Of a stretch of 35,430 bases of DNA, positions 26,080 through 35,430 are shown in pieces. A program made the translations under genes and the position numbers. The notes under the pieces were generated by a model. That model had not been told where the DNA came from and ran no database searches. It saw nothing but the letters and a program-made list of their open reading frames with translations. Positions within the stretch are counted from its first letter, which is position 1; each line of letters opens with the position of its first letter. Source of the stretch: Ruminiclostridium sp. (lineage in GTDB: Bacteria; Bacillota; Clostridia; Oscillospirales; Ruminococcaceae); the NCBI GenBank assembly GCA_017465545.1, contig JAFTVY010000008.1, positions 1-35,430 of the forward strand, read 5' to 3'.

Positions 26080-26718
26080 TCATACTCGTTCAATAATTTT
26101 ATGACTGAGCTTATATATCTCTCCGTAGAATTCTATTGTTTTTCCTGAACATACAATGAAACTTTCGTCGCATAGCCCGTAAATTGTATATTTTTCAGAT
26201 AGATCGATTAATTCGTCGGATACTTCATTTCTGATAAAATGAGGCTCTACAGAAATGTCTACACAAGCAAGCCCGTTATAAATTTTCTGTTTGAAGTGTC
26301 CGCAGGACAAAGTGCATATTGATGTTTTCGCCATATTGATAGATCCTGCACTCATACCTATGACAACACCGCTGTGTTGTTTTATTGTTTTTTCTAAACC
26401 ATATTTCTGAAAATAACGGAACTGTGTGGGAGTGTCACCGCCTGACAGCCATATTACGTCGGCTTCTGCAACCTTTTTTTGTGCTTCATCAGCTGTCATT
26501 CTTCCGTCTATAACGTAAGCTTCTTTGAAATGAATACCCGCTTCCTTAAACATATTCAGAAAAAAGCAAAAATATTTATCTGTTTTTTCGTGTATTTTTT
26601 CAAATTCTGATGCAACAAAAGCAAACTTGTTTCTTTTACTTATCTTTTGTCTGAACACCTCTGCGGCTTGTAAATTAAATCCACCGTTGAACATACTTGT
26701 CAATATGTATGTACTCAT
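26080..26718 (-). CDS. Peptidase E-like protein (S51 family)
   Basis: 212-aa protein of the class I glutamine amidotransferase-like fold, closest by motif to peptidase family S51 (alpha-aspartyl dipeptidase PepE). The nucleophile is S123 in GMSAGS and the histidine H160 in EPHF, 37 residues later as in PepE; the LSGGDTPTQ motif is also typical. There is no signal peptide, so a cytosolic serine peptidase is predicted. The exact substrate is unknown. GGAGGTGTG precedes the ATG. It lies 30 bp behind the 376-aa gene in the same direction and is likely co-transcribed with it. Confidence 0.88.
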   Translation of the reverse strand: MSTYILTSMFNGGFNLQAAEVFRQKISKRNKFAFVASEFEKIHEKTDKYFCFFLNMFKEAGIHFKEAYVIDGRMTADEAQKKVAEADVIWLSGGDTPTQFRYFQKYGLEKTIKQHSGVVIGMSAGSINMAKTSICTLSCGHFKQKIYNGLACVDISVEPHFIRNEVSDELIDLSEKYTIYGLCDESFIVCSGKTIEFYGEIYKLSHKIIERV

Positions 26719-26748: not shown

Positions 26749-27879
26749 TTATTCCGTCTGCTCTGCCGCACGCTTCCAATAGTCAGAAATCATCTTAATT
26801 ATGCTTAAAGCCTGCTCCTTGTAATTATCGCCTATCGGCTCGAAATCGGAAAAGGTGTGACCGGTTTCGTTATCCGAAATCATATCCTTGTCATATCCAC
26901 CCGCAACGCCTATCATAAATCCACGATCCTGAAGCTTCGGTGCGGTGGAGGTGTACTTGAATATGTAATACAGATACTCATTGTGGATAAGCGTGTCCAC
27001 AAATTCTAATTTGTCTAAAGTATCTCCACATTCGCTCGGATGAGAAAGCCAGTTTCTCATCTCCGAATAAGCTATCTTTTCCTGCGTAATATTACTTTCG
27101 TTTAATAAATCCATTCTACCGATAGAAGATAGGATTCTTAAAAGTCTGCTTGCGTCAAAATCTATTAATCTGTTTACAGCTTCTGCCGATACGGGCATAT
27201 TGTTAAGAGCCATAGCCTTGACAAGGAATAATTCGCTTTCCGTATCTAACTGAATCTGGGATATTTTTCTTAAAACCGCCATTATTTCATCGTTATTGAT
27301 ACGTGCCGCCATATCCAATGTAATCGAAAGAGCTGATATTACTTCGTTATCGTCGCAACCGTTCTCTGAAACGTAGTTGTGTAAAAGCTCCAGTCGTTTC
27401 TGTACGCCACTGATAATTCGCTGTTTTTCCTCCTGCGGTGCAAGAGAAAGCTCGGGATCATTATTAAGAATAATCAGAGCCACACAGTCACCTATACCGT
27501 TGTAGCAGCAGGTGAAGACCTCCGCCAGAGTATGATATATGTATTCAAGCTTTGCCTTGAATAATGGCAGACTTTCAAGAGCTGTTACGTAGGGAATATC
27601 CATGCAGGTAAATTCAAAAAGCATACAGAAAATCATAGTCTTGATTTTCTGTTCGCTCTTGTATAAGCTCTCAATTGCAAGCGGTACGTTCGCCATACAA
27701 AGCTCGCTATAGCCTTCTGAAAGCTCGTCTATAAAGCTGTCGATTTTATCGGTATCGACCTGCCAGTTTTTGATAGCCTCATCCATAGCCGCCTGATTGT
27801 CATTATTAAGGATAATGTCCTTTAACGTCTGAAAATCAGATTTTTGTGCCTGATTGCCATTCTTTTTGCTGAAAAACAT
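26749..27879 (-). CDS. Uncharacterised 376-aa helical protein
   Basis: No family was recognised. The protein is soluble, acidic and mostly helical with no signal peptide or membrane segment. The N-terminus (MFFSKKNGNQAQKSDFQTL) is polar. Central repeated helices (IIISGVQKRLELLHNYVSE, ALSITLDMAARINNDEIMAV) suggest a repeat-type scaffold fold. A C-terminal segment (GFMIGVAGGYDKDMISDNE) is the most distinctive stretch. CAAGGAG precedes the ATG. It is the first gene of a probable operon with the S51-like peptidase. Confidence 0.78.
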   Translation of the reverse strand: MFFSKKNGNQAQKSDFQTLKDIILNNDNQAAMDEAIKNWQVDTDKIDSFIDELSEGYSELCMANVPLAIESLYKSEQKIKTMIFCMLFEFTCMDIPYVTALESLPLFKAKLEYIYHTLAEVFTCCYNGIGDCVALIILNNDPELSLAPQEEKQRIISGVQKRLELLHNYVSENGCDDNEVISALSITLDMAARINNDEIMAVLRKISQIQLDTESELFLVKAMALNNMPVSAEAVNRLIDFDASRLLRILSSIGRMDLLNESNITQEKIAYSEMRNWLSHPSECGDTLDKLEFVDTLIHNEYLYYIFKYTSTAPKLQDRGFMIGVAGGYDKDMISDNETGHTFSDFEPIGDNYKEQALSIIKMISDYWKRAAEQTE

Positions 27880-28414
27880 AATATCTTACTCCTTGAATAT
27901 ATTGAGAAATATCGGAATTTTATTAAACTGTATAACAATATTTTACACCTTTTCAGTTCTGTCGTCAACAGGTTTTTTATGTAGGTGGTGCTTGGGTGAC
28001 AGTATAAAACAGAGCTGACCGGGAGGGTAGCTCTTATTCTATTCTGCCATAAAAAAATTTCAGGTGTATGTGTCGTCGAAAAAGCTGTCAGAAACTCTGA
28101 ATGTTTTTTTGCAGAATATGCAGATTCCTTTGCTATATCGGTGAGGAACGGCGCCAATACCCGACTTATATTATAGCTGATGCATTTTGCACAAAAAAAC
28201 GTCTTGTGATTTAGTGAAGTCTACAAAATAAAAAATATTTAAAAAACCATCTAACAAAATCTGCTGTTTTATCAATATTATATATAGTAGAGAAAACTTT
28301 TATTGCCGTTACGGATGATTATACCAAAATGCAAGATTCGGTATCGAAGTACTGGAAATAGGACAGGCTGTCTGTTATACTGAAAAAGAGTATACAATTC
28401 TGAGGCTTCAAACC
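27880..28414. other. Non-coding stretch between the 376-aa gene and tracrRNA
   Basis: About 535 bp without a supported gene. It contains a degenerate copy of the GCTGACC hairpin (28009-28036) and AT-rich runs at 28220-28240. On the + strand the frame ending near 28152 (ECFFAEYADSFAISV) is open but lacks a start and may be a gene remnant. Confidence 0.5.
28353..28381 (+). promoter_or_regulatory. Candidate cas operon promoter
   Basis: TGGAAA (28353-28358), a 17-bp spacer and TATACT (28376-28381) with an upstream TG form a moderate extended -10 promoter. Transcription from here would give a ~184-nt cas9 leader running antisense to the whole tracrRNA. An alternative is the TATAAT at 28541-28546, which lacks a -35 box. 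Confidence 0.35.
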
Positions 28415-28535
28415 AAAAAATAAAGCTCTCACAAAGAGAGCTTAAGTTTACACACACTGTGTAGTCGGAAAACCGACGATTTGAATAAATTTTTATTTGA
28501 ACTCGTAGTGTAATTTCATAGGGGACTATGAAACT
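28415..28535 (-). ncRNA. tracrRNA
   Basis: The minus-strand transcript, about 120 nt, starts with an anti-repeat (28534-28495). It is perfectly complementary to the CRISPR repeat over a 24-nt core (28505-28528), with further pairing at TTTGA (28496-28500) and AAAC (28531-28534) and a bulge between, as in type II-A duplexes. Downstream come hairpins GTCGG-TTTT-CCGAC (28477-28464) and TACACA-CAC-TGTGTA (28463-28449), then a terminator AAGCTCTC/GAGAGCTT (28443-28423) and six U (28420-28415). It pairs with crRNA, is presumably processed by RNase III, and loads Cas9. The 5' end is inferred from the promoter. Confidence 0.9.
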
Positions 28536-28541
28536 ATCTAT

Positions 28542-28570
28542 ATAATAACACATTTTCAGGAGGATGTCAA
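28542..28570 (-). promoter_or_regulatory. tracrRNA promoter overlapping the cas9 start region
   Basis: On the minus strand TTGACA (28570-28565), a 17-bp spacer and TATTAT (28547-28542) lead directly into the anti-repeat. The -35 box lies between the cas9 ribosome site AGGAGGA (28558-28564) and the cas9 ATG (28572). Confidence 0.8.
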
Positions 28571-28571
28571 T

Positions 28572-31500
28572 ATGCAGGAAGAAAAAATTTTTGTCGGGCT
28601 TGATATAGGCACGGATTCAGTCGGCTATGCCGTAACGGATCAGAACTACAAGCTGAAGAAATTCCGAGGGGAAGCTATGTGGGGCGTCACTCTCTTTGAT
28701 GAAGCAAGTCTTAGTGATGAAAGACGAATGCACCGCACGGCAAGACGCCGTCTTGACAGAAGACAGCAGAGAGTTTCGCTTGTTTCGGAGCTTTTTGCAA
28801 AGGAAATTTCAAAGGTGGATGAAAGATTTTTCATAAGGCTTAAGGAAAGCAGTCTTTATCGTAGTGAAAGCGAAGCTCCCTTTACACTCTTTAATGATAA
28901 GGATTTTACCGATAGGGACTACCACAAGATATATCCGACCATTCACCATCTTATTGTAGAGCTTATGAGCTCAGACGAGCCTCACGACGTCAGACTCGTT
29001 TACCTTGCCTGCGCATGGCTGGTTGCACACAGAGGACATTTTTTGAGTGAAATAAGTATGGATAATCTGTCTGCACTTACAGACTTCAGTCTTGTTTATA
29101 AGGAGCTTACGGACTACTTTGCAGATAACGGCTTTTCTCCCTTATGGCAGGACGTTGATGAAGGCGAAATTCAGAATATACTGAAGAAAAAGCTCTCGGT
29201 CAGTGCAAAGGGTAAGGAATTATCCCTTGCCATGTTCAAAGGCCAGAAGGTACCTAAGGAACCTACGGAAAGCTTCCCCTTCAATACTGAAATAATACTC
29301 AAGGCTATTTGTGGCAGTAAAATTACCGCAAAGGATATGTTCTGCAACGAAGAGTATGCGGATATTCCGTCATTTACCCTTGCAAGCGATGAGGAGCTGG
29401 AGGAGATAACGGGTCTACTTGGTGATGACGGCGAGCTTATAAAAAAGCTGAAGGGAATATTTGACTGGACTTTACTTGTAGATTCCTTGCAGGGCGAAAA
29501 CACCATATCTCAGGCGAAGGTCAGAGTATATGAGAAGCATAACAAGGATTTAAAGGCTCTTAAGTATATCGTAAAGAAGTATCTTAAAGGCAGTTATTAC
29601 GGGCTTTTCAGAGGGGATAAGGATAACAGCTATTCTGCTTACGTTGAAAGCTCAAAGAACAGCGAGGCCTTCTTTAAAAATATTTCAAAGCTTACAGAAA
29701 AGCTGGACGTGGAAGAATCCGACAGACCGCTTTATGAGAAAATGCGTTCAGATATGGAAGCGGGAATATTCTTAAAAAAGCAGAAGGATGGAGATAACAG
29801 AGTAATACCCTATCAGCTTTACCTCTACGAGCTTCAGCAGATGCTTAAAAAGGCAGAGAGCTATCTTGGTTTCCTTTGTGAAAAGGATGAAAACGGACTT
29901 ACCGTATCTGATAAGCTTGTTTCTGTATTCGCCTTCCGTGTACCTTATTTTGTAGGACCGCTGAACAGACATTCACAAAAAGCCTGGTTTGTCCGCAAGA
30001 CTGAAGGAAAGATATACCCCTGGAATTTCACCGAAAAAGTTGACCTTGATTTAAGCGAAGAGGGATTTATAAAAAGAATGACCAACACCTGCACGTATCT
30101 GCCCGGTGAAACGGTTATCCCTAAGGAATCCCTGATTTATCATAAGTACTCTGTGCTGAATGAAATAAATAATATCAGAATAGACGGAGTATCTCTGCCT
30201 GTCAAAGTTAAACAGCGACTTTATAACGAATATTTTATGGAAAACAGAAGAGTGTCAGCAAAGGGTGTAAAGGGCTTTTTAAAGAGTATAAACTGCTTTA
30301 GCGAAGGTCAGGTGCTCAGCGGAATTGATATTCAGATAAATTCCAATCTTAAGCCGTATCATGATTTTAAAAGACTTATGGAGAGCGGAATGCTTTCTGA
30401 AACCGACGTTGAAAGGATAATTGAAAGACTTACATATTCTGAGGACAGAAGAAGAATCGCCAAGTGGCTGAAGGATAATTTCAGCGGCTTATCCGAAGAG
30501 GATGTAAGATATATTTCAAGACTGAATTATAAGGATTTCGGCAGACTGTCCAAAAAATTCCTTTGCGACTTTGTCGGAACGGAAAAAAGTACGGGAGAAA
30601 CTGCCACTATAATCGACTTCTTATGGAATACAAATAACAATCTGATGATGCTTTTATCTGAAAGGTTTACCTTTACGGAAGAATTGGAAAAGCTTCGCAG
30701 GGAGTATTATTCTGACGGCGATAAGAGCATTGACGAGCAGCTTAATGATATGTATATTTCCAATGCGGTAAAGCGCCCTATCATCAGAACTATGGAAATA
30801 ATGAAGGAAATCAAAAAGGCCTGCGGTAGAGCGCCCGACAGAATATTTATTGAAATGGCAAGAGGCGGTACTGCTGACCAGAAGAACAAGAGAACCTTAT
30901 CCCGCAGAAAACAGCTTGAAGAATTATACAAGAAGTGCCGTGATGAGGACGTAAGACTTGTAAAGGCACAGCTTGAGGAGATGGGAGAGCTGGCAGATAA
31001 TAATCTGCAGAGTGACAGACTTTATCTTTATTTTATGCAGCTTGGCCGTTGTATGTATAGCGGAGATGCTATTGATATTTCTGCGGTAAGGGGCACGACC
31101 TACAATATAGACCATATTTACCCTCAGGCTTTTGTTAAGGATGACAGCGTATTAAATAATAAGGTGCTGGTAAGATCGGAAGACAACGGACAGAAGAGTG
31201 ATACTTATCCCATAAACCCTGCAGTTCAGAGTAAAATGAGAGGCTTCTGGAAGATGCTGAAGGACAACGGACTTATTACAGAGGAAAAGTATAAGCGCCT
31301 TATAAGAACAGATGCGTTTTCCGATGAAGAAAGACTTGGCTTTATCAACCGTCAGCTTACTGAAACTACCCAGTCCACGAAGGCGGTAGCTACACTTTTA
31401 AAGAAATACTATCCCGAAACTGAAATCGTGTACGTAAAGGCAAGACTGACGTCTGAATTCCGTCAGGAGTTTGATATGCTCAAATCCCGTACATATAATG

Positions 31501-32600
31501 ATCTCCATCACGCAAAGGACGCCTACCTCAATATTGTAACGGGTAACGTGTACCACCACAGATTTTCAAAGAACTGGTTCAGGCTGACCGATCATTACAG
31601 TATGAGAACAAGCAGAGTATTCGGTAGTGAGCTTGTCCGTGGCGGTGAGGTTATCTGGAATAAGGATGAGATGCTCGGCACTATCAGAAAGATTGTGGCT
31701 AAGAATAATGCCCATATGACGAGATACGCTTACTGTAAGCAGGGAGGCTTGTTCGATCAGATGCCGGTCAAGGCTTCGGAAGGACTTGTGCCGAGGAAGA
31801 AGGGACTCTCAACAGAAAAATACGGTGGATACAATAGACCGTCAAATTCCTTCTTTATGGTAGTAGGGTACACTATAGGTAAAAAGACTGACGTCATGAT
31901 AATGCCGGTAGAACTTCTTTTTGCGGATAAGGCTTGTGCAAGCAAGGAGGCAATGGCTGAATATGCTAAGGACAGAATAGGCAGAATTACAGGAAAGACT
32001 GTAGATTCCGTATCCTTCCCTCTTGGTATGAGAAAGATAAAAATCAATACAATGCTGTCGCTTGACGGTTATCGCGTTTGCATTACAGGTTCATCAAGCG
32101 GAGGCAGATGTATCATACCTATGCCTTTCGTTCCCTTTGTTGCCGATAGTAAGACGGAGCTTTATATAAAGCGTCTTGAAGCCTTTGTGGAAAAGTGTAA
32201 GGAAAACCCCAACTTTGTATACAGGGTGGATTATGACAAGGTAACGGAAGAGGAGAATATCCGGCTTTACGATCTGTATATTGAAAAGCTGACAAATTCT
32301 ATATTCGTAAAGCGTCCCAATAATCCCGCAAAAACACTTGTTGACGGAAGAGCGATTTTTGCAAAGCTTGATATAAAAGAGCAGTCGAAGGCATTGCTTT
32401 CTATACATCAGGTGTTCGGAAGAATATCCAGCGGTTGCAATCTGGAGGCTATTGGTGGCAAGTCAAGGGCGGCGGCAACGGTAAGCTTCAGTGCTAATAT
32501 TTTAAACTGGAAAAAGCAGTACAAGGACGTAAGAATAATAGACGCAAGTGTATCTGGACTCTGGGAAAAGAAATCACAGAATCTTCTGGAATTATTATGA
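28572..32600 (+). CDS. cas9: Cas9 endonuclease, type II-A
   Basis: 1342-aa RNA-guided DNA endonuclease, similar in size to the Streptococcus pyogenes enzyme (1368). RuvC-I: D11 in VGLDIGTDSVGYA. An arginine-rich bridge helix follows (about 51-70, RRMHRTARRRLDRRQQR). RuvC-II: E761 in IFIEMARG. HNH: D847-H848 in NIDHIYPQ with N863 and N872, aligning with D839, H840, N854 and N863 of SpCas9. RuvC-III: H980 and D983 in HHAKDAYLN. The C-terminal third, with KYGGYNRPSNSFFMVV, is the PAM-interacting side. All nuclease residues are intact. AGGAGGA lies 7 nt before the ATG. Its stop overlaps the cas1 start by 4 nt. PAM preference cannot be read here. Confidence 0.98.
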   Translation: MQEEKIFVGLDIGTDSVGYAVTDQNYKLKKFRGEAMWGVTLFDEASLSDERRMHRTARRRLDRRQQRVSLVSELFAKEISKVDERFFIRLKESSLYRSESEAPFTLFNDKDFTDRDYHKIYPTIHHLIVELMSSDEPHDVRLVYLACAWLVAHRGHFLSEISMDNLSALTDFSLVYKELTDYFADNGFSPLWQDVDEGEIQNILKKKLSVSAKGKELSLAMFKGQKVPKEPTESFPFNTEIILKAICGSKITAKDMFCNEEYADIPSFTLASDEELEEITGLLGDDGELIKKLKGIFDWTLLVDSLQGENTISQAKVRVYEKHNKDLKALKYIVKKYLKGSYYGLFRGDKDNSYSAYVESSKNSEAFFKNISKLTEKLDVEESDRPLYEKMRSDMEAGIFLKKQKDGDNRVIPYQLYLYELQQMLKKAESYLGFLCEKDENGLTVSDKLVSVFAFRVPYFVGPLNRHSQKAWFVRKTEGKIYPWNFTEKVDLDLSEEGFIKRMTNTCTYLPGETVIPKESLIYHKYSVLNEINNIRIDGVSLPVKVKQRLYNEYFMENRRVSAKGVKGFLKSINCFSEGQVLSGIDIQINSNLKPYHDFKRLMESGMLSETDVERIIERLTYSEDRRRIAKWLKDNFSGLSEEDVRYISRLNYKDFGRLSKKFLCDFVGTEKSTGETATIIDFLWNTNNNLMMLLSERFTFTEELEKLRREYYSDGDKSIDEQLNDMYISNAVKRPIIRTMEIMKEIKKACGRAPDRIFIEMARGGTADQKNKRTLSRRKQLEELYKKCRDEDVRLVKAQLEEMGELADNNLQSDRLYLYFMQLGRCMYSGDAIDISAVRGTTYNIDHIYPQAFVKDDSVLNNKVLVRSEDNGQKSDTYPINPAVQSKMRGFWKMLKDNGLITEEKYKRLIRTDAFSDEERLGFINRQLTETTQSTKAVATLLKKYYPETEIVYVKARLTSEFRQEFDMLKSRTYNDLHHAKDAYLNIVTGNVYHHRFSKNWFRLTDHYSMRTSRVFGSELVRGGEVIWNKDEMLGTIRKIVAKNNAHMTRYAYCKQGGLFDQMPVKASEGLVPRKKGLSTEKYGGYNRPSNSFFMVVGYTIGKKTDVMIMPVELLFADKACASKEAMAEYAKDRIGRITGKTVDSVSFPLGMRKIKINTMLSLDGYRVCITGSSSGGRCIIPMPFVPFVADSKTELYIKRLEAFVEKCKENPNFVYRVDYDKVTEEENIRLYDLYIEKLTNSIFVKRPNNPAKTLVDGRAIFAKLDIKEQSKALLSIHQVFGRISSGCNLEAIGGKSRAAATVSFSANILNWKKQYKDVRIIDASVSGLWEKKSQNLLELL

Positions 32601-33469
32601 GCTGGCGGACGGTAGTAATATCAAAACGCTGTAAGCTGGATTATCGTATGGGCTATATGGTAGTACGGGCAGAGGAAACAAAGCGGATTTTCATTGATGA
32701 AGTGGCGGTGCTTATGATAGAAAATCCTGCCGTTTCCTTTACCGGTTGTCTTTTGGAAGCACTTACTGAAAAGAAGGTAAAGGTTGTATTCTGCGACAGT
32801 AAGCACAATCCTATGGCGGAAATAATTCCCTATCATATTGCCTATGACAGCTCACAGAAAATCAGGAGGCAGATATCCTGGGATGAGGATATAAAAGATC
32901 TTGTCTGGACAGAGATAGTCGCTGAAAAGATAAGAAAGCAGGCTGATTTCCTTTTGGAAAAGGAAAAACAGAAGGAGGCAGAAATGCTTTATTCCTATAT
33001 AGGTCAGATGGAGCATGGCGACGTCACAAATAGAGAAGGGCATGCGGCAAAGGTTTATTTCAATGCCCTTTTCGGACCTGATTTTACAAGAAGTGAAAAC
33101 TGCTTTATAAACTCGGCACTTAATTATGGATATAGTATAATTCTGTCCGCATTTAACCGCGAGATAGTCTCCAAAGGCTATATGACACAGCTTGGGTTAT
33201 TTCATGATAATATGTATAACCCCTTCAACCTTGCCTGTGATCTTATGGAGCCCTTCCGTATTCTTGTGGACAGAGAGGTGATAAAACTATCACCGCAGAA
33301 ATTTGAAAAGGAAGAGAAATACGCTCTTTGTGATATTCTGAATCATATCGTTATGATAGACGGAAATCAGCAGACGGTAATAAATGCCGTGAGGATATAC
33401 ACGGGTAGCGTGTTTGAAGCAATGAATCAGGAGGATATCCTGAAGCTGAAATTTTATAATTTGCTATGA
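32597..33469 (+). CDS. cas1: Cas1 integrase
   Basis: 290-aa CRISPR adaptation integrase. With Cas2 it inserts new spacers at the leader end of the array. The metal-binding residues are E147 (TNREGHAAKVYF), H203 (LGLFHDNMYN) and E218 (LACDLMEPFR), the same pattern and nearly the same spacing as in other type II-A Cas1 proteins. An N-terminal beta domain (residues about 1-95) and C-terminal helical catalytic domain are as usual. Its ATG overlaps the cas9 stop (ATGA), so translation is probably coupled. Confidence 0.97.
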   Translation: MSWRTVVISKRCKLDYRMGYMVVRAEETKRIFIDEVAVLMIENPAVSFTGCLLEALTEKKVKVVFCDSKHNPMAEIIPYHIAYDSSQKIRRQISWDEDIKDLVWTEIVAEKIRKQADFLLEKEKQKEAEMLYSYIGQMEHGDVTNREGHAAKVYFNALFGPDFTRSENCFINSALNYGYSIILSAFNREIVSKGYMTQLGLFHDNMYNPFNLACDLMEPFRILVDREVIKLSPQKFEKEEKYALCDILNHIVMIDGNQQTVINAVRIYTGSVFEAMNQEDILKLKFYNLL

Positions 33470-33786
33470 GTTACAGATTTATGAGAATGTTAGTGATGTT
33501 TGATCTGCCTGTGGAAACAAACGAGGATAGAAGAAACTACAGAAAATTCCGTAGTATGCTTATGAAAAACGGCTTTGTAATGATGCAGGAGTCGGTATAT
33601 TGCAGGATGGTAGTAAATCATTCGGTTGAAAGTGCGGTAATCGAAACAATAAAAAAGGACAAGCCGCCCAGAGGACTTGTTCAGGTTATGTCTGTTACTG
33701 AAAAACAGTTTGCTAAAACTGTTTACATTGTCGGAGATTCAGACAGAGACGTTATAGACAGCGATGAAAGGCTGATAATACTATGA
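33466..33786 (+). CDS. cas2: Cas2 adaptation protein
   Basis: 106-aa ferredoxin-fold protein that dimerises and bridges two Cas1 dimers in the integration complex. The early strand with D13 (LVMFDLPVET) and the YRKFRSMLMKNGF helix match the family, as does the central MQESVYCRMV. Length is normal for type II-A. The start overlaps cas1 by 4 nt (ATGA) and the end overlaps csn2 in the same way. Confidence 0.96.
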   Translation: MSYRFMRMLVMFDLPVETNEDRRNYRKFRSMLMKNGFVMMQESVYCRMVVNHSVESAVIETIKKDKPPRGLVQVMSVTEKQFAKTVYIVGDSDRDVIDSDERLIIL

Positions 33787-34454
33787 GATTCGTCTATCCG
33801 CTGATAACGGAGGAGTTTGAAACAGACAAGGGATATTTCAATACTATAGTCATAGAAAATCAACAGCTTTTATCTGAAATTATAGAGGATATCTATAATC
33901 AGAAGAACGGCAACGAGGGAAAGGCTGTGGTGTCTGAGAAATACGTTCCTCTCCCTTTTTCAAAAAACGTTGAGATTATTGACAGATTCATACCTCTGGA
34001 GCTGAACACAAAGCCGGTTATAAACGGAGTCTGTTCAGCTTTGGAAAGGTATGCACTAAACGAAGAAAACTATAGCCGTACTTGTAGAATAACAGCGGAG
34101 CTGGAGCAATATCTGTACGAGCTTTCTATGGAAATTCCCTGCAGTATTTCCTTTGGCTCAGTTACGATGCCTTCTATAATAAAACATTCGGGTGTTGAAA
34201 TAGACACAAACGGCTCGGGAATAGCCGAAAAGCTATGTGAATATATAGAGCTTGTAACAGAATTTGATAGAAAAAAGCTCTTCTTTCTTATAAATATGAG
34301 AAGCTTTGTAAATGATAAGGATATGGAAAATTTTATTCATACAGTCCTTACTCACGGATATCACGTTATAGCTATCGAGAATCATACCTACAGCAAGCTG
34401 ACAAGTGAAAAAAGAATTATAATTGATAGCGATATGTGTGAGTTTCCCGGTTGA
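33783..34454 (+). CDS. csn2: Csn2, type II-A adaptation protein
   Basis: 223-aa subunit that forms a tetrameric ring around double-stranded DNA ends and is needed for spacer acquisition in subtype II-A. It begins with the short-form csn2 pattern (MRFVYPLITEEFE), and contains LELNTKPVINGVCSALERYA and, near the C-terminus, KKLFFLINMRSFVNDKDMEN and HGYHVIAIENH. Its presence without cas4 fixes the subtype as II-A. The ATG overlaps the cas2 stop. Its own stop codon overlaps the -35 box of the downstream promoter at 34451. Confidence 0.95.
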   Translation: MRFVYPLITEEFETDKGYFNTIVIENQQLLSEIIEDIYNQKNGNEGKAVVSEKYVPLPFSKNVEIIDRFIPLELNTKPVINGVCSALERYALNEENYSRTCRITAELEQYLYELSMEIPCSISFGSVTMPSIIKHSGVEIDTNGSGIAEKLCEYIELVTEFDRKKLFFLINMRSFVNDKDMENFIHTVLTHGYHVIAIENHTYSKLTSEKRIIIDSDMCEFPG

Positions 34455-34801: not shown

Positions 34802-35430
34802 GTTTGAGAGTAGTGTAATTTCATAGGGGACTAAAACAAATACCTGCTTCATTCCGTCTTGTGTTGTGTTTGAGAGTAGTGTAATTTCATAGGGGACTAA
34901 AACCTTTATTTCTATATAAGCTAATTTATTTGCGTTTGAGAGTAGTGTAATTTCATAGGGGACTAAAACATCGGAGTATTATCACCTGCATAGGCTCTAG
35001 TTTGAGAGTAGTGTAATTTCATAGGGGACTAAAACAGATTGGGATTCATCGTTTGAGAATTTCATGTTTGAGAGTAGTGTAATTTCATAGGGGACTAAAA
35101 CAAGATCTTTCTCGCCGCCACCGACATATTTGTTTGAGAGTAGTGTAATTTCATAGGGGACTAAAACTACAGCAACAAGTAATACCACAAACTCCACGTT
35201 TGAGAGTAGTGTAATTTCATAGGGGACTAAAACTACGGAAGGATAAAAAACAATATGAACAAGGTTTGAGAGTAGTGTAATTTCATAGGGGACTAAAACA
35301 ATCAATGTAAATTTATACCTAAAGTATGCGTTTGAGAGTAGTGTAATTTCATAGGGGACTAAAACTCTTTATATTCATTTGATTGCTGAATATCGTTTGA
35401 GAGTAGTGTAATTTCATAGGGGACTAAAAC
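34802..35430 (+). CRISPR. Type II-A CRISPR array, at least 10 repeats
   Basis: Ten identical 36-bp repeats (starting GTTTGAGAGTAGTGTA, ending GGGGACTAAAAC) begin at 34802, 34868, 34934, 35000, 35066, 35132, 35198, 35264, 35330 and 35395. Eight spacers are 30 nt and the last (35366-35394) is 29 nt. The repeat matches the tracrRNA anti-repeat at 28495-28534. No degenerate final repeat is seen and the window ends exactly on a repeat, so the array probably continues. Confidence 0.99.

Follow-up and report, generated by a model that had tools for sequence, protein, structure and literature searches.

A predicted tracrRNA promoter within the cas9 translation start region of type II-A CRISPR-Cas loci, mostly from Clostridia

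Described systems and the analysed locus

In the literature that we found, the control of Cas9 level has been described for streptococci. In Streptococcus pyogenes, a second tracrRNA promoter makes a long form, tracr-L, which guides Cas9 to the cas promoter, Pcas, as reported in PMC11417352. In Streptococcus agalactiae, an RNA antisense to the 3′ end of tracrRNA has been observed, and strains devoid of P1cas are reported to drive cas from P2cas alone; P1cas and tracr-L are also present in this species, and P2cas, which is repressed by CovR, is termed newly evolved (PMC12216829, PMC4448216). A single-guide-like RNA has been predicted upstream of cas in Listeria monocytogenes SLCC2428 (PMC6199352). 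In synthetic convergent promoters of E. coli, antisense RNA and collision were about equal in repression (PMC4731013), and models of coupled collision and antisense effects are described as giving switch-like behaviour (PMC4519249).

The window, by which we mean the whole stretch of 35,430 bases analysed here, coincides with its contig and carries a CRISPR-Cas locus of type II-A, to judge from its four Cas proteins, an array, and a tracrRNA with an anti-repeat and a terminator (Table 1). Cas9, Cas1, Cas2 and Csn2 all scored above the cut-offs of their families. The array reaches the contig end; hence, its spacer number is a lower bound. Rfam gave zero matches at gathering score within the window, and no relative was found in viral contigs searched with a single-protein query. 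On the minus strand at 26080-26718, the window encodes a relative of PepE/cyanophycinase-like peptidases with a score under the curated cut-off; it is adjoined by a 376-amino-acid protein (26749-27879) with no NCBIfam match.

Table 1. Features of the type II-A locus in the window.
Feature	Positions	Strand	Basis or remark
Candidate cas9 operon promoter, TGGAAA-17-TG.TATACT	28353..28381	+	9/12 + TG; predicted start near 28388
Predicted cas9 mRNA leader, antisense to whole tracrRNA	28388..28571	+	inferred
tracrRNA	28414..28535	-	predicted from -10 and terminator; start 28535, end near T run after stem
Intrinsic terminator stem of tracrRNA	28423..28443	-	sequence scan
Anti-repeat	28495..28533	-	core 28506-28528 exact complement of repeat; outer bounds approximate
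5′ hairpin of tracrRNA, anti-repeat paired with itself in cis	28511..28536	-	folding, swap control
tracrRNA promoter, TTGACA-17-TATTAT, extended -10	28542..28570	-	sequence; same place in 79/96 loci
cas9 Shine-Dalgarno (SD) sequence, AGGAGG	28558..28563	+	within spacer of tracrRNA promoter
cas9, 1342 aa	28572..32600	+	TIGR01865, 864 bits
cas1	32597..33469	+	TIGR03639
cas2	33466..33786	+	TIGR01573
csn2 (type II-A marker)	33783..34454	+	TIGR01866, 154 bits
CRISPR array, 10 perfect 36-nt repeats	34802..35430	+	ends at contig end

The likeness to the S. pyogenes tracr-L system lies in the type, II-A, and in a tracrRNA locus that adjoins cas9 and would be coupled to cas expression; the window differs in having neither a long form nor a guide match and in that its predicted promoters converge. 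It resembles more the P2cas layout, with a tracrRNA promoter additionally built into the cas9 start: a plus-strand promoter, a consensus match only, is predicted at or beyond the tracrRNA 3′ end. Unlike S. agalactiae, however, the window leaves no place for a P1cas, and 79 of 96 loci have a tracrRNA promoter that overlaps the cas9 start. As in the Listeria RNA, two overlapping repeat-like segments fold together and are followed by tracrRNA-like hairpins; whereas that RNA was proposed as a single-RNA regulator, the hairpin of the window lies at a predicted transcription start and has no guide (PMC6199352). With convergent-promoter pairs the window shares face-to-face promoters and overlapping RNAs, and from the predicted starts, collision, occlusion and antisense pairing would be expected. 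The published pairs are synthetic or modelled, whereas here both partners belong to one Cas9 complex and the effect is a predicted one. A description of an overlap between a promoter and the cas9 start was not found in our searches of open-access papers.

The tracrRNA promoter at the cas9 start

On the minus strand of the window, a near-consensus promoter predicted to serve tracrRNA overlaps the translation start region of cas9 and fires away from it. Its -35 (TTGACA, 28570-28565) and -10 (TATTAT, 28547-28542, preceded by TG) match the consensus at 11 of 12 positions and form the top-scoring promoter-like site in both scanned stretches. Read on the plus strand, the complement of the -35, TGTCAA (28565-28570), stands between the SD and the ATG at 28572, and the 17-nt spacer includes the complement of the SD. 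The initial annotation had placed the -35 box between the ribosome site and the start codon and the -10 across a plus-strand TATAAT (28541-28546), and both can be read in the letters, the former position being also conserved. It had further called the two units divergent, which holds for their opposite strands but not for the predicted promoters; these converge face to face, with predicted starts of tracrRNA and cas9 about 150 bp apart. Because shuffles yield 2.7 promoter-like sites per region (4 were found in one scanned stretch and 7 in the other), a single match is weak evidence, and the case for this promoter rests on its conservation.

Relatives, mostly from Clostridia, were chosen by Cas9 similarity from three sources. 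A search of 396 genomes of the family gave matches in 39, some of them weak, and one of 398 genomes of the phylum gave 13 above the family cut-off; from named genome contigs, the best 80 of 508 confirmed loci among the matches listed were taken. The first set comprised 110 loci, 20 of them without a recognised cas9 start; after the removal of three duplicates and two loci with short upstream sequence, 85 were left. Of 30 later loci, 18 yielded a start, of which 11 had not been in the set before, bringing the total to 96; the 12 that yielded none are L116-L121 (shorter Cas9-family proteins), L022, L025, L048, L049, L050 and L077. Also outside the count are L015, L021, L023, L026, L029, L042, L087, L091 and L100, which belong to the first set and have no start, and L124-L140.

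A minus-strand promoter whose -35 begins between -9 and -5 relative to the start codon was found at 79 of the 96 distinct cas9 starts, against 1.2 expected from shuffling each 63-nt stretch; as the sample was picked by likeness to the Cas9 of the window, this share is not a prevalence among Cas9 at large. In L048, L049, L050 and L077, the anti-repeat adjoins cas9 and the promoter there is below the threshold, only a degenerate TTGATT-17-TATATA being visible by eye at the cas9 start; with these loci included, the count is 79 of 100. The same four have SLDIGTDS in place of GLDIGTDS at the start of RuvC. Within the core set of 74 loci, TTGACA is exact in 68, and the spacer measures 17 nt in 67, 18 in six and 16 in one, the scan having allowed 16-18 only. 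The -35 keeps its position in loci with Cas9 identities as low as about 40%. A tree of 90 Cas9 rows, built by a quick method and uncertain in its root, requires 7 changes of the overlapping layout versus 11.4 when shuffled, which indicates that the layout is clustered yet does not form one clean clade. The comparison of sequences confirms that the predicted layout is conserved in most relatives examined and is not a local accident. Its carriers include the cultured Acetitomaculum ruminis (L056) and Mediterraneibacter glycyrrhizinilyticus (L084).

The hexamer might also belong to cas9: TGTCAA, which in the core set sits between the SD and the start codon, could be a translation element of the cas9 mRNA that resembles a -35 by chance. 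We find this scarcely credible and reject it, since the location of the box follows tracrRNA in the exceptions. In L009/L106, tracrRNA together with its TTGACA is ~113 nt farther from cas9 (the -35 begins at -120), the box is missing from the cas9 start, and the gap holds TTGCAA-17-TATAAT (-78 to -49), a plus promoter. In L020, with a layout similar to that of L009, the tracrRNA box is at -243, and no clear near plus promoter was seen. That the box travels with tracrRNA in L009 assigns TTGACA to the tracrRNA promoter. The cassette, with -35 and -10 intact, lies upstream of the SD and at a distance from cas9 that is greater by 17-24 nt in L016/L017, L024, L027, L112 and L114, and TGTCAA is upstream of the SD in six loci. 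Relative to the start codon, TGTCAA is found anywhere between -6 and -9 (-13 in L097), whereas its spacer to the -10 stays at 17 in 67 of 74. Moreover, the box (at least 5 of 6 bases) is present near the start in 78 of 87 loci with an anti-repeat motif within 220 nt and in none of the nine loci without one; these nine include L028, L030, L122 and L123 (another Cas9 kind), L027 and L112, in which the motif missed the tracrRNA, and L020, in which tracrRNA is farther out. L009 (= L106) and L020 encode sister Cas9s and have a long stretch between the tracrRNA promoter and cas9; that of L009, with its own cas9 promoter candidate, represents an S. pyogenes-like divergent layout in the same family.

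The start of tracrRNA was placed by rule, seven bases after the -10. The segment 28535-28413 folds with a z of -5.4, and 71 of 74 loci show a self-paired predicted 5′ end, one of these, L008, with another partner in the best fold; the tracrRNAs of L036, L072 and L097 lack the 5′ arm and have no 5′ hairpin. In the swap control, 70 of 71 loci folded better with their own 5′ arm than with foreign arms on average, and in 31 of 71 the own arm beat 95% of the foreign ones; an average of 12% of foreign arms equalled it. As the hairpin begins at the predicted start, it backs this start independently of the promoter match, and the layout may likewise help to locate tracrRNA starts. Part of the tracrRNA's own anti-repeat is concealed in the hairpin, whose C-rich loop in the window faces the G-rich portion of the repeat; the hairpin may serve as a toehold or as a 5′ guard. 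Counted across the loci to tell the two strands apart, G-U pairs make up 65 of 651 hairpin pairs on the tracrRNA strand and 49 of 601 on the leader strand, and the tracrRNA strand is more stable in 42 of 74 loci and the leader strand in 27 of 74, differences that do not decide between the strands.

A transcript that starts with the hairpin and the anti-repeat leaves zero spare bases for a guide. This bears on a feedback of the S. pyogenes kind, suggested earlier for this locus, in which a long tracrRNA would act as a natural single guide and lead Cas9 to repress the cas promoter. Such a loop is known in S. pyogenes and is reported to be supported in S. mutans (PMC11417352), and the 5′ hairpin of tracrRNA does resemble the upper part of a single guide. 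Guide-length sequence, however, is absent 5′ of that hairpin, and a scan of cas9 from +1 to +600 in 74 loci found no conserved minus-strand promoter (six locus-bins in all, each of them beyond the first 300 nt). For the window, for which a pairing check of a long form against the cas promoter had been proposed, the longest match between tracrRNA and Pcas is 6 nt and that of the upstream stretch 9 nt, within shuffle range; both fall short of the 11 nt that, beside a PAM, make up the guide match in S. pyogenes. On the grounds of the scan and the match test we reject a tracrRNA of this kind here as very improbable.

Transcription of cas9 from beyond the tracrRNA gene

The sequence data support the view that cas9 transcription begins on the far side of the tracrRNA gene, at a promoter of its own, in the window the candidate at 28353-28381. 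Two other plus-strand matches lie farther upstream, at 27854-27882 (10/12, no TG) and 27902-27929 (9/12, no TG), and transcripts from any of the three sites would run across tracrRNA. Among relatives, a plus promoter was found at -250 to -151 in 33 of 65 loci versus 4.4 expected from shuffles within 50-nt windows, and the three bins between -151 and the start codon contained one in 0, 1 and 1 loci. A search anchored at the terminator, which began 120 nt ahead of the tracrRNA 3′ end and stopped 20 nt past it, gave a plus site with a score of at least 10.5 in 37 of 71 loci, with -10 ends at -84 to +3, and no good plus promoter in the other 34. The closest relative, L031 (93% Cas9), is represented by only a weak plus site with a score of 10, which is reached by 24% of shuffles; the upstream stretch holding it is largely diverged, and the tracrRNA and start region are nearly identical to those of the window. 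Taken together, the comparison backs both promoter places, that of tracrRNA strongly and that of cas9 moderately. The proposal of a cas9 transcript that starts at 28353-28381 and runs antisense to all of tracrRNA agrees with the layout and with the enriched position class in relatives, the starts being predicted ones.

Part of the missing plus promoters may be explained by the orientation of the upstream ORF. In a post hoc analysis with mechanical stop-to-stop ORFs that left 14 of 71 loci unclassed, 15 of 20 loci whose upstream ORF runs in the opposite direction had a plus promoter, versus 14 of 37 with a co-directional ORF (Fisher p 0.012). Among the co-directional cases, the ORF ended within 110 nt of tracrRNA in 14 of the 23 loci that lack the promoter and in 0 of the 14 that have one. 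In some relatives, cas9 is probably transcribed by read-through from a co-directional gene; whether by its own promoter or by read-through, cas9 transcription would cross the tracrRNA gene either way.

Alternatively, cas9 could be driven by the plus-strand -10 at 28541-28546 that mirrors the minus-strand one, so that one bidirectional promoter would serve both units and the cas9 leader would measure about 19 nt. The overlap of the plus TATAAT with the minus -10 occurs in both the window and L031, and a -10-like hexamer lies between -48 and -18 in 49 of 74 loci. Such plus hexamers, however, partly follow from the minus -10 itself, and only 30 of 67 have the T needed to complete the mirror -10. 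Since supporting elements are found in only 2 of 74 (the TG of an extended -10) and 3 of 74 loci (a -35 with at least 4 matches), we consider it improbable that this is the main cas9 promoter and prefer the distal one.

Possible mutual restraint of the two units

With the distal promoter as the source of cas9 transcripts, we propose a conserved face-to-face promoter module, mostly of clostridial type II-A loci, in which the tracrRNA and cas9 units would restrain each other; we give this reading a probability of about 0.58. Polymerases serving cas9 would run through the tracrRNA gene and across its promoter, and a polymerase that sits on the tracrRNA promoter or is leaving it would block or collide with cas9 transcription, which in turn would occlude the tracrRNA promoter. 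The near-consensus tracrRNA promoter would presumably be the stronger partner. The cas9 leader would carry the full complement of tracrRNA, with a predicted duplex energy of -208 kcal/mol versus -46 for the repeat:anti-repeat, and the leader:tracrRNA duplex would be cut by RNase III. The expected outcome is a cas9 level that is low relative to tracrRNA, with no guide-based repressor. Competition between tracrRNA and cas9 is plausible by layout, although conservation of the layout is in itself no proof of a regulatory effect.

Compact packing may account for the same arrangement: the tracrRNA cassette would simply abut cas9, and both would be transcribed too rarely for interference. A -35 hexamer fits the usual spacing from SD to start codon, and that of the tracrRNA promoter does fit the free bases there. 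The layout is also graded, with the cassette farther out in L016/L017, L024, L027, L112 and L114 and the box degenerate in L048, L049, L050 and L077. Furthermore, five tested bidirectional promoters of E. coli are reported to show no competition at basal activity (PMC12825309). On the other hand, the -35 position is held in the 79 loci across Cas9 identities to about 40%, though relatives show that a shift is possible, and the plus promoter beyond tracrRNA is likewise enriched. We therefore regard packing with no regulation as rather unlikely and retain mutual restraint as the preferred reading.

A more far-reaching version, unlikely in our estimate and put forward tentatively, is that a hard-wired stoichiometry governor replaces the tracr-L loop in a broad, mostly clostridial II-A group, the supply of tracrRNA setting the Cas9 output. 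The strong, embedded tracrRNA promoter and the distal cas promoter would exclude each other in cis, the pairing of free tracrRNA with the cas9 leader would offer both a perfect antisense and a pseudo-repeat to RNase III, and Cas9-guided repression would play no part.

Should the layout function as predicted, many Clostridia would tune Cas9 by another route, one that sequence alone is enough to reveal. Cloning of cas9 with its native start region would bring along a strong opposing promoter. The occurrence of both layouts in natural relatives (L009 and L020 versus the rest) makes the question testable.

It is unlikely that tracrRNA masks the ribosome site by pairing. The predicted duplex stops at 28535, 37 nt before the start codon and 22 nt before the SD, so that masking is not expected in the window, and in 63 of 71 loci tracrRNA is predicted to start at -36 or -37, which is upstream of the SD. 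Accessibility of the ribosome site showed no clear difference among three predicted forms of the leader. The leader is also unlikely to act as a self-targeting noncanonical crRNA, an idea suggested by PMC8224270, as the target flank would be repeat-like.

As a minor observation on the start codon, the TGTCAA box stands directly before it (-6) in 15 loci, of which one (L040) starts with ATG and 14 with GTG (L005, L006, L007, L008, L010, L011, L013, L073, L074, L098, L102, L103, L109 and L110), as if the box set the context of the start codon.
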